From an uncultured Eubacteriales bacterium (GTDB lineage Bacteria; Bacillota; Clostridia; Christensenellales; CAG-138), in the NCBI GenBank assembly GCA_902802575.1, contig CADCMN010000014.1, positions 1 through 64,000 of the forward strand: 64,000 nt of DNA. The letters are read 5' to 3'. The notes under the pieces were generated by a model that had not been told where the DNA came from, did no database searches, and saw only the letters and a program-made list of their open reading frames with translations. Positions within the stretch are counted from its first letter, which is position 1. Each line of letters opens with the position of its first letter. This document shows positions 4,887-7,291 of the stretch, piece after piece. The translations under genes and the position numbers were made by a program.

Positions 4887-6392
4887 ATGGCTTATTACTT
4901 CAGCGAACCGTCTCATACCTTCTCCGAGTATCTGCTCGTTCCCGGTTATTCTTCCTCGGCCTGCACGCCTCAGAACGTGTCTTTGGTCACTCCCCTGTGC
5001 AAGTTCAAGATGAATGAGGCCCCGGCCCTGACCATGAACATCCCCCTGGTCTCCGCCGTGATGCAGTCCGTGTCCGGCGAAAAGCTGGCGGCGGCCCTGG
5101 CAAGGGAAGGCGGCGTGTCCTTCATCTTCGTGTCCCAGACCATCGAGAGCCAGGCGGCCATGGTCCGGGCGGTGAAGAAGTGCAAGTCCGGCTTCGTTCG
5201 CAGCGATTCCAACGTGACCCCCGAATCCACGCTGAGCGATGTGATCGCCCTCAAGGAGCGCACGGGCCACTCCACCATCGCCGTCACCGCTGACGGCACC
5301 CCCGATGGGAAGCTGTTGGGCATGGTCACCAGCCGGGACTATCGCGTGAGCCGCATGAGCCCGGATACCCCCGTCCGGGAGTTCATGACCCCCTTCTCCT
5401 CCCTGGTATACGCCTATGAGGGCGTGAGCCTTCGGGAGGCCAACGACATCATCTGGGAGCACAAGCTCAACACCCTGCCCGTCATCACCCGGGACGGCTG
5501 CATGTCCTCCTTTGTGTTCCGCAAGGACTACGACGCCCACAAGGACAACCCCCTGGAGCTGCTGGACGACCACAAGCGGTACGTGGTGGGCGCAGGCGTC
5601 AATACCCGTGACTATGAAAAGCGCATCCCCGCCCTCATCGAAGCCGGAGCAGACATCCTCTGTATCGACTCCTCCGAGGGTTTCACCGAGTGGCAGCAGC
5701 GCACTATCGACTTCGTCCGCCGGAACTACGGCGATTCCGTGAAGATCGGCGCGGGCAACGTGGTGGACGGAGACGGGTTCCGCTTTCTGGCGGAGGCCGG
5801 CGCCGACTTTGTGAAGGTGGGCATCGGCGGCGGCAGCATCTGCATCACCCGGGAGACCAAGGGCATCGGCCGCGGCCAGGCCACTGCCGTGCAGGACGTG
5901 GCGGCCGCCCGGGACGAGTATCTGAAGAAGACCGGCGTCTACGTGCCGGTGTGCGCCGACGGCGGCATCGTTCAGGATTACCATGTGACGCTGGCCCTGG
6001 CCATGGGCGCGGATTTCTGCATGCTGGGCCGATACTTCGCCCGGTTCGACGAGAGCCCCACCAACAAGGTCCTTATCAACGGCAGCTACATGAAGGAATA
6101 CTGGGGCGAAGGCAGCGCCCGTGCCCGGAACTGGCAGCGGTACGACAACGGCGGCGACAAGAAGCTGACCTTCGAGGAGGGCGTGGATTCCTATGTGCCC
6201 TACGCCGGCCCTCTGCACAACAACGTGGAGACCACTCTCCACAAGGTCCGGTCCACCATGTGCAACTGCGGCGCCACCACTATCGCCGAACTTCGGGAAA
6301 AGGCTCGCCTCACCCTGGTCTCCCCCGCCTCCATGGTGGAGGGCGGCGCCCACGACGTGCTCCAGAAGGACAGCCGGTACTTCGCGAACTAA
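4887..6392 (+). CDS. guaB: IMP dehydrogenase
   Basis: Oxidises IMP to XMP with NAD, the committed step of GMP synthesis. The 501-residue protein has the catalytic barrel split by a CBS pair (about 95-215), the conserved DSSEG, and the active-site loop GGGSICITR with catalytic Cys319. The flap region reads [15 protein letters not shown] with the expected Arg-Tyr pair, and differs from the common YRGMGS form, as do GGGS (usually GPGS) and CITR (usually CTTR). These variants occur together, pointing to a divergent IMPDH clade rather than GMP reductase, since CBS domains and flap Arg are kept. The start at 4887 has GAGGAGGG upstream. Confidence 0.93.
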
Positions 6393-6416
6393 ACAAAAAT
6401 TTCTCTGAAAAAATCC

Positions 6417-6444
6417 TTGCTTTTTTCTCTCGGATGTGTATAAT
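6417..6444 (+). promoter_or_regulatory. Promoter of tRNA-Ala
   Basis: TTGCTT (6417-6422), a 16-bp spacer and a perfect TATAAT (6439-6444) end 19 bp before the mature tRNA 5' end. Confidence 0.75.
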
Positions 6445-6463
6445 ACTTATTGCGTTCATTCGA

Positions 6464-6539
6464 GGGGCATTAGCACAGTTGGTAGCGCGCAACGTTCGCA
6501 ATGTTGAGGTCAGGGGTTCGAATCCCCTATGCTCCACCA
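6464..6539 (+). tRNA. tRNA-Ala (anticodon CGC)
   Basis: A 76-nt cloverleaf with genomically encoded CCA. Acceptor stem GGGGCAT pairs with ATGCTCC (one G-T). The 7-nt anticodon loop TTCGCAA gives anticodon CGC, reading the alanine codon GCG. The T arm is AGGGG-TTCGAAT-CCCCT. It follows guaB with its own promoter. Its 3' 16-20 bases are repeated twice in the 300 bp downstream. Confidence 0.95.
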
Positions 6540-6542
6540 AAA

Positions 6543-6569
6543 AACAGCCCATCCGGGTGGTTGTTTTTT
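6543..6569 (+). terminator. Intrinsic terminator of tRNA-Ala
   Basis: AACAGCC pairs imperfectly with GGTTGTT around a GC-rich loop and runs into six T, starting four bases after the tRNA CCA. It lies before the repeat block, so the repeat would need separate transcription or read-through. Confidence 0.65.
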
Positions 6570-6583
6570 GCTGTCTCATTTCT

Positions 6584-6680
6584 GGGGATTCGAACGGGTC
6601 CGGTAGTGAATCAGGCCACAGTGTGGCCTGAGAGCCGGACCCCGACCAAGCCCGCAGGCGCGAATTCGAATCCCCTATGC
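6584..6680. repeat. tRNA-linked palindromic repeat, unit A
   Basis: A non-coding nested hairpin. Outer stem: GGGGATTCGAA (6584-6594) pairs perfectly with TTCGAATCCCC (6665-6675). Middle stem: GGGTCCGG (6596-6603) with CCGGACCC (6635-6642). Apical hairpin: 9 bp from TCAGGCCAC (6611-6619), loop AGT, GTGGCCTGA (6623-6631). An unpaired 3' segment (6643-6664) ends in GCAGGCGCGAA. The outer 3' arm is a copy of the tRNA-Ala T arm, running to 6680. I do not recognise a named family; it may be an unclassified structured RNA or a small non-autonomous mobile element. Confidence 0.75.
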
Positions 6681-6842
6681 CTTGATTCGAACGGGCGCAG
6701 AAGTGAATGAAGCCCCAGTGGGGCTTCAGAGCCTCCCCTGGGCTTCGCCCGGCCTTGCTGAAAAAGCCGCGCTGTGGCGTTTTCCTGGCGCTCGGCCCCC
6801 CTCCCAAGCCCACAGGCGCGAATTCGAATCCCCTATGCTCCA
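6681..6842. repeat. tRNA-linked palindromic repeat, unit B
   Basis: A second, longer copy of the unit, in tandem. It keeps GATTCGAACGGG (6684-6695), the AGTGAATGA lead-in, a 9-bp apical hairpin with the same AGT loop (6708-6728), and the 3' block AAGCCCACAGGCGCGAA followed by a tRNA 3'-end copy (6823-6842). GGGCGC (6693-6698) can pair with GCGCTC (6788-6793). Relative to unit A there are about 65 extra bases holding a further small hairpin (GGGCTTCGCCC). The last bases overlap the stop codon of the minus-strand acetyltransferase gene. Confidence 0.7.
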
Positions 6843-7291
6843 TACCTTTCCATTATTATAAATAACTCATCCGTGTCATCCACCCGCTGCCGATGCTCCG
6901 TCATGCAGAAGCCGTGGCGCTCATAAAGGCGGATGGCGCCGGGATTCTTCTCGAGAACAAGCAGACGCCTGGCCCGGGTGTGCCGGAGAGCATGCTCCAG
7001 CAAAGCGCTGCCAACGCCCTTGTTATGAAAAACGGGTTCCACAAACAGCTTTTCGATCTCGTCCCCGTTGATCCGAATGAAACCCTTCACCACACCGTCG
7101 TCAAAGACATAGGTGTGTTCGATCTTATCCGGCTGATCCAGATATTCCCGCATCAAAACAGGCACGTTCAGCTCCGAGAAAAAATAAGCGTCGTTTCGAA
7201 ACAGCGGATAGAAGTGAAGACGGTAGTTAACTATTTCTATCTCCGCAAGGCGGCAACTGTCGCCCGGGACGGCTTTACGGATGCAGGACAT
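6833..7291 (-). CDS. GNAT family N-acetyltransferase
   Basis: A 152-residue acetyl-CoA-dependent N-acetyltransferase; the acceptor is unknown. It shows the GNAT core: an IRKAVPGD start, beta-strand FIRINGDEIEKLFVEPVFHNKGVGSALLEHAL with the acetyl-CoA pyrophosphate loop (about 85-115), and AIRLYERHGF near 128. AAGGAG lies 6 bp before the ATG. The final codons (Tyr-Gly-Ala-stop) are encoded inside the downstream copy of the tRNA-Ala 3' end, so the C-terminus may have been altered by that element. It is monocistronic. Confidence 0.87.
   Translation of the reverse strand: MSCIRKAVPGDSCRLAEIEIVNYRLHFYPLFRNDAYFFSELNVPVLMREYLDQPDKIEHTYVFDDGVVKGFIRINGDEIEKLFVEPVFHNKGVGSALLEHALRHTRARRLLVLEKNPGAIRLYERHGFCMTEHRQRVDDTDELFIIMERYGA

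Follow-up and report, generated by a model that had tools for sequence, protein, structure and literature searches.

Directly downstream of a tRNA-Ala(CGC) gene, the genome of an uncultured Eubacteriales bacterium of the Clostridia carries two palindromic units, each of them closing with a copy of the 3' end of that same tRNA. Both lie in the window analysed here, a stretch of 64,000 nucleotides that opens contig CADCMN010000014.1. The preliminary description of this locus had left the choice between an unclassified structured RNA and a small mobile palindrome whose insertion at a tRNA 3' end leaves that end restored. The finding itself is real and beyond chance, and the layout, its recurrence, the fitted arms and the fold can be taken as established. 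With a confidence just better than even, we read the two units as representatives of a small mobile element of Clostridia that has no gene and inserts at tRNA 3' ends. Of the two original readings the mobile palindrome is the better supported, through matching arms at many tRNAs, empty- and filled-looking loci and an identical core shared between different sites, with movement as such supported but unproved.

As had been described, two units with a common layout lie 3' of the tRNA-Ala gene, at 6584-6680 and 6684-6842. The parts of the array, where S' stands for the antisense and S for the sense copy of the tRNA, are the following:

6464..6539, + strand: tRNA-Ala(CGC), source of the copied 3' end (ARAGORN; Rfam RF00005, 62.5 bits)
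6535..6573, + strand: terminator-like palindrome just 3' of the tRNA CCA (inverted repeat 6535-6549 / 6559-6573, 87%)
6584-6680, + strand: unit A, whole
6584..6595, + strand: S' of unit A, antisense tRNA-Ala T-arm end GGGGATTCGAAC, 100% complementary to 6516-6527
6596..6642, + strand: core of unit A, with an 8-bp stem, TAGTGAAT loop, AGT-loop hairpin, AGAG and closing stem
within 6596..6642, + strand: AGT-loop hairpin of unit A, 8 bp, or 9 if a flanking T-A is counted
6643..6664, + strand: small right-hand CGCA hairpin region of unit A, AAGCCCGCAGGCGCGAA, 5' of the sense copy (repeat D2, other copies compared)
6665..6680, + strand: S of unit A, sense tRNA-Ala 3' end TTCGAATCCCCTATGC, 16 nt (repeat D3)
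6684-6842, + strand: unit B, whole, laid out as unit A
6684..6692, + strand: S' of unit B, antisense T-loop copy GATTCGAAC (repeat D1)
6693..6731, + strand: core of unit B, left part, with the covarying 9-bp AGT hairpin (repeat D1)
6733..6797 (approximate, by eye), + strand: second dispersed repeat nested in unit B, shared with loci L002, L004 and L014
6798..6822, + strand: right-hand hairpin region of unit B (repeat D2)
6823..6842, + strand: S of unit B, sense tRNA-Ala 3' end, 20 nt, 100% identical to 6517-6536

The three stems reported for unit A are all there, with 11 bp (GGGGATTCGAA/TTCGAATCCCC), 8 bp (GGGTCCGG/CCGGACCC) and 9 bp (TCAGGCCAC-AGT-GTGGCCTGA), and the 9-bp hairpin of unit B does keep the same AGT loop with three compensated pair changes. 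Unit A folds far better than its dinucleotide shuffles, with z = -6.5 as DNA and -7.0 as RNA and 0 of 200 shuffles equal to it, and since its complement folds nearly as well (z = -6.0 as DNA), energy alone does not allow a choice of strand. The fold of unit B is weaker (z = -3.4 as DNA and -2.5 as RNA, 2 of 200 RNA shuffles equal). The second repeat, nested at about 6733-6797, breaks its middle stem, which thus lacks the form seen in A. This nested repeat, TGGGCTTCGCCCGG ... GCTTTTTCCTGGCGCTCG (6733-6797; L002, L004, L014), occurs inside several units and also sits within an unrelated GTCATCCTGAG/AGGATGACA repeat. On the minus strand, a 177-aa open reading frame at 6310-6843 (EHRGFEPLTST...) is no more than the tRNA and its repeats translated in reverse, and spurious protein annotations are likely to be expected from frames of this sort.

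Are these two units a local curiosity? A DNA search of the assembly returned 36 places, many of them weak, and a covariance model made from eleven copies of this genome, hand-picked as complete, gave 22 matches at E <= 1, 19 of them at E < 1e-7, with unit B itself matched over 6679-6770 (E 3.3e-10). The units measure about 100 to 210 bp. The model also found matches in 17 of 61 relative genomes, including all 12 genomes of the genus with 5 to 24 each, and in 25 of 396 genomes sampled across the order, for which ten candidates per genome were scored. A scan of public genomes for the core pattern gave at least 118 stretches; nearly all of the 80 matches listed were named as Clostridia, Oscillospiraceae or members of these, and one as "uncultured bacterium". 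All the Clostridial data are draft assemblies, mostly metagenomic judged by their titles. A blastn comparison of unit A with phages and plasmids, at E up to 0.01, gave no match. Contigs classified as viral add 13 stretches with the core pattern (L199-L211), with no tRNA called alongside any of them, and these may be host stretches wrongly classed; one of them, L199, shows tRNA-like arms by eye, though no gene was called. The preliminary description had made its case depend on further copies in related genomes, on covariation and on an association with tRNAs, and had proposed a covariance-model search; the search yielded further copies, mostly behind tRNA or tmRNA genes, in which the stems covary.

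In this genome, 17 of the 19 strong copies lie 3' of a tRNA as judged by eye and two do not, the 17 including two copies after a truncated tRNA-Leu and one after a tRNA-Lys split at a contig end. The preceding tRNAs are those for Ala, Gln, Arg, Glu, Ser, Leu, Trp and Lys. Over this genome and its relatives, 59 of 67 distinct contexts are tRNA-linked, a figure biased upward as many loci were fetched around tRNAs, and a few of them come from other genera. Among the matches listed for the loci fetched by pattern (L081-L198), 48 of 113 distinct contexts are linked to a tRNA of the same strand, 54 lack this link and 11 are contig starts; on the viral contigs the count is 0 of 14 contexts, 13 without a tRNA and 1 at a contig start. 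In the 72 adjacent cases of all sets the core begins 34-102 nt 3' of the gene, with at least 58 at 54-66 nt, and the gene is a tmRNA in 5 of the 72. In three cases a tRNA lies within 700 nt on the opposite strand.

The preliminary description had not remarked that the core is found at sites without a tRNA as well. In such places, among the matches listed for the pattern-fetched loci, it is often found within other palindromic repeats, in a context that reads CTTCCCC...GGGG - TAGCGAAGCGG - core - TGACCGAGCCGCAGCGAGAC - AGCTGTC. Given the many tRNA-free places, tRNA targeting is therefore not the sole habit of the core. For 44 of 75 tRNA-free cores, the 20 nt on the left include the motif GCGAAGC, an unusually stable DNA mini-hairpin, where shuffles expect 0.18, with the reservation that these 75 cores have a repeat in common and are hence not independent.

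A second feature that had gone unremarked is the nature of the left arm of the unit, an antisense copy that matches the tRNA at each site. We followed it in 146 tRNAs of four genomes (this genome at fetched loci only), separating 77 terminal tRNAs, with no further tRNA start within 260 nt, from 69 non-terminal ones. The longest exact antisense run to the 3' end of the own tRNA, in the next 160 nt, has a mean of 10.1 nt, compared with 6.2 nt for the same measure against other tRNAs. Runs of at least 9 nt follow 49 of the 77 terminal tRNAs versus 2 of the 69 non-terminal ones, which means that an antisense copy of the own end accompanies most of the transcript-ending tRNAs examined in this genus, with loci varying by species. 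Both an antisense and a sense copy of at least 9 nt were present behind 41 of the 77 terminal tRNAs, and an AGTGAAT-type loop within 420 nt behind 40. By eye, the antisense arm spans nearly all the region from CCA to T-loop at Trp (L247), Arg(ACG) (L233), Ser(GGA) (L285) and Ser(GCT) (L265), and the sense copy reaches 24 nt at Arg(CCT), Asn and Pro(GGG).

We dropped the idea that the antisense arm always copies the T-arm: at Asn and Pro(GGG), which have other core types, it covers the anticodon or variable region at the start of S (for Pro(GGG) judged from the unit alone). Visual comparison suggests one common frame for at least four core types. Other structured cores were seen behind tRNA-Asn, Pro(GGG), Thr(GGT) and Ser(CGA) (L237, L276, L220, L282, L257, L266), some of them in units above 300 bp. 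The idea that S' always comes from a terminator palindrome extended over the tRNA end was abandoned as well, because many copies have a linker, for instance TGGAATGGAA, between terminator and S'.

If such units move, related genomes should be found with and without them at the same tRNA. The exact 23-nt end of tRNA-Arg(CCT) is present in 7 of the 12 genomes of the genus; there is no unit behind it in L231 (genome G006) and L307 (G003), and there is one in L277 (G011) and L304 (G008). In L297 (G004) a unit stands behind a partial copy of this tRNA, and the remaining Arg(CCT) copies shown have no unit in the next 220 nt. The order in L277 is tRNA, terminator-like palindrome, S', core, a 24-nt copy of the tRNA end and a terminator, the last one much like the terminator found directly 3' of the tRNA in L231; judging from L277, the palindrome at 6535..6573 may likewise belong to the inserted unit. 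Since terminators of the same type as the last one in L277 also follow partial tRNA copies in L296, L302 and L309, it is maybe part of a larger integrated stretch rather than of the ancestral site, which muddles the comparison at Arg(CCT). The Asn tRNA, found in 8 of the 12 genomes, has no unit in L312 and L326 and one of another core type in L315 and L316; Pro(GGG) has none in L263 and another core type in L220 and L282. Species thus differ in alleles that look empty or filled, in comparisons that involve drafts and leave the direction of the change unproved. Moreover, an identical 47-nt core is found behind a tRNA-Ala (L053, G007) and a tRNA-Leu (L055, G003) with different arms. At many other tRNAs, among them Ala(CGC), Arg(ACG) and Gln(CTG), none of the species compared lacks the unit, and for these sites inheritance fits as well as movement. 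Tyrosine recombinases were found in 12 of 12 genomes searched, five carriers and seven without a core match, a count that is uninformative as they occur in both groups. No enzyme moving the units was found, and neither excision nor circles nor transposition were observed.

In the stems of eleven paralogous copies, 15 of 24 pairs have changed on both sides, compared with 9.4 in shuffles, and with the partner slid by 1 to 3 columns two-sided changes are seen at 1 to 4 pairs. The covariation claimed in the preliminary description thus holds across the eleven genome copies; it could not have been established from the two units alone. Pairing is seen in 100% and 98% of the cells of the two inner stems and in 61% of those of the outer stem, a poor value due partly to misalignment. 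A larger set of 168 distinct cores was collected by a rule that treats G-T and A-C alike, with the loop bases fixed, and the G-T, A-C and mismatch counts that follow cover the middle stem P2 and the hairpin P3 of the core. P3 is Watson-Crick in 1,314 of 1,344 cells. P2 is perfectly paired in just 76 of 170 distinct cores, with 77 different arms, and shows 25 tandem G-A/A-G mismatches at three positions (9 near a tRNA, 14 not, 2 at contig starts) and none of the C-T type. Selection on the stems purely as double-strand palindromes was dropped, because these tandem G-A mismatches are strand-specific.

These data bear first on an explanation with no mobile element at all, in which the tRNA 3' end and its terminator were tandemly duplicated and template switching in palindromes then made and kept the arms and stems. 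It draws strength from units that are often in tandem, from the near-perfect P3, from the long palindrome that terminator, S and S' can form together and from deletion between repeats, which could give the empty forms. We nevertheless hold it unlikely: the same core and loops recur at unrelated tRNAs and at tRNA-free sites of other assemblies, two different tRNAs are followed by the identical 47-nt core, and template switching gives no reason to prefer G-A over C-T, 25 tandems against 0.

A structured regulatory or processing RNA, made by read-through of the tRNA terminator in the manner of the E. coli repeats rrA, rrB and rrF, is a rather improbable account as well. The eleven copies do combine strong compensatory changes with invariant loop bases, the cores lie with few exceptions on the strand of the tRNA, and tandem G-A mismatches, which occur here, are typical of RNA too. 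The counterparts in the rRNA operons of E. coli are indeed transcribed and bind Hfq and CsrA (PMC8144298). An RNA helix would however be expected to tolerate G-U, and the 2,688 stem cells of the 168 cores contain 37 G-T and 37 A-C (30:23 in P2 and 7:14 in P3; 23:20 near tRNAs and 15:19 away from them). The controls show the G-T excess that the cores lack, with 32:7 in the acceptor and T stems of 55 distinct tRNAs, a set biased by being called with ARAGORN, and 12:2 in 54 terminator hairpins (Fisher p = 0.001 for the cores against the tRNAs and 0.018 against the terminators). As G-T is no commoner than A-C, the cores give no sign of G-U tolerance. In addition, the unit sits 3' of a terminator-like palindrome and many core sites have no tRNA. 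The comparison with Rfam that had been suggested brought no family other than tRNA on the stretches tested: positions 6300-7000 of the window, at E up to 5, gave the tRNA and five matches far below the gathering score, and ten related loci gave tRNAs only at the gathering score. Altogether, of the usual marks of a structured RNA the compensatory changes are present, while a match to a curated family and G-U tolerance are both absent, so the RNA reading of the preliminary description comes out weakened. With their strand-specific mismatches the stems agree with a single folded strand in this orientation, more readily as DNA than as RNA.

REP sequences, short extragenic palindromes with conserved unpaired bases, share that general aspect with our units, which have unpaired foot bases. 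Many of our copies have GGTAG before the hairpin and others GGGAG or GGTGG, where the REP motif has a GTAG-type foot. Unlike REP sequences, the Clostridial units have arms that follow the sequence of the tRNA. A Y1 transposase of the RAYT/IS200 type as the mover is highly improbable and was rejected on distribution, since Y1_Tnp (PF01797) is present in one of five sampled genomes of the genus (G006) and absent from four (G000, which is 77% complete, G001, G004 and G011), and the domain is about equally frequent in carriers (9 of 25) and in all genomes (123 of 396).

We return then to a mobile element, which most likely would move and fold as single-stranded DNA. A unit would usually consist of a terminator-like palindrome, S', the structured core and S, and it would insert at the 3' end of a tRNA or tmRNA gene, in the direction of the gene, leaving the tRNA intact. 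Differences in presence between loci would stem from such insertions, and arrays like the present one would arise by repeated insertion or tandem duplication. The unit would bring its own terminator and displace the old one downstream. Its acting form would be the folded single DNA strand, moved by an enzyme in trans, for which a tRNA-directed tyrosine recombinase is perhaps a candidate. As for the refitting of S' to a new tRNA, the simplest idea is that one arm of the palindrome could be copied from the other during replication. Movement in the form of folded single-stranded DNA, should it occur, would place the units among very small mobile elements with tRNA genes as their target. Integron attC sites, which IntI recombines as a folded bottom strand, offer an analogy in that the units too would act as a folded single DNA strand; no cassette gene accompanies the units and no sequence relation to attC has been shown.

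A class with a like layout, not mentioned in the preliminary description, is known in E. coli. The tRNA-linked repeats (TLRs) were first described in 1978, and K-12 has 22 of them at ten loci, each ending with 18-19 bp of the 3' end of the upstream gene (PMC8144298). A function is known for none of them, leaving aside the evidence on three copies in rRNA operons (PMC8144298; PMC9245011). The main text of the former does not contain "inverted", "mobile", "palindrom" or "Clostridi", and has "transpos" once, in the reference list; searches of an open-access library gave no paper that describes the present Clostridial repeats, antisense arms of TLRs or mobile TLRs. TLRs, including rtT/RttR behind tyrV (Rfam RtT, RF00391), stand directly 3' of tRNA or 5S genes, as the Clostridial units do behind tRNA-Ala, and their 18-19 bp of identity compare with 20 of 20 nt in unit B and 16 nt in unit A.

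At the fetched loci of K-12 we found 14 extra copies, defined by the exact last 15 nt, for 57 tRNA and 5S genes; the 5S repeats are not among them because the match at rrfB covers 13 nt and the rule demands 15. Five of the 14 units have an antisense arm (10 nt three times at tyrV, 8 at tyrT, 8 at argV), and proK has a weak one of 6 nt that chance could produce. By this exact-run test 8 of the 14 lack the arm. In 14 of 14 E. coli units the copy is preceded, at 3-6 nt, by a small hairpin with GA on either side (0.11 in shuffled sequence; the repeats are related and not independent), as it is at 12 of 48 Clostridial junctions (0.06 in shuffled sequence). The E. coli copies begin a few bases further into the T-loop than the Clostridial ones. 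In contrast with TLRs, the Clostridial core is also found away from tRNAs and serves many tRNA species per genome, and its sequence is unlike that of the E. coli repeats, with no RtT match in the window at E up to 5. With no RtT homology and only the short GA-hairpin-GA likeness, the units are a TLR-like variant and not a member of RtT, and they are best filed as a new TLR-like gene-less element of Clostridia.

The rtT core occurs in 4,692 of 5,426 E. coli genomes, at 1 to 10 places each, and closed E. coli genomes exist with and without a unit at one site (L294 and L293); such empty sites are explained equally well by deletion between direct repeats. A wider proposal, tentative and in our opinion doubtful, would see the TLRs of distant bacteria as one class of gene-less mobile elements, folding as single-stranded DNA, inserting at the 3' ends of tRNA genes and writing the sequence of their target tRNA, forward and reversed, into their own ends. 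With the fitted arms of this Clostridial genus and loci that vary among its species, the origin of TLRs becomes a question that can be answered from the comparison of closed genomes.

Finally, integrative elements in tRNA genes, with the attL and attR sites of tyrosine recombinases, resemble the units in giving direct repeats of the tRNA 3' end and leaving a whole tRNA. The Clostridial units differ from them in having no gene that we could see and a second, inverted copy of the tRNA end. Larger integrated stretches of this kind are present at tRNA-Arg(CCT), and the point where the repeats begin sets the two apart, as those of the core type described here start in the T-loop and the Arg(CCT) integrative repeats near the anticodon loop. 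The ends of tRNA-Arg(CCT) were seen 9-19 kb apart on one contig in four genomes (G000:C40, G001:C32, G006:C4 and G008:C13; L296-L310), with direct repeats that extend back towards the anticodon loop, like those of classical integrative elements.
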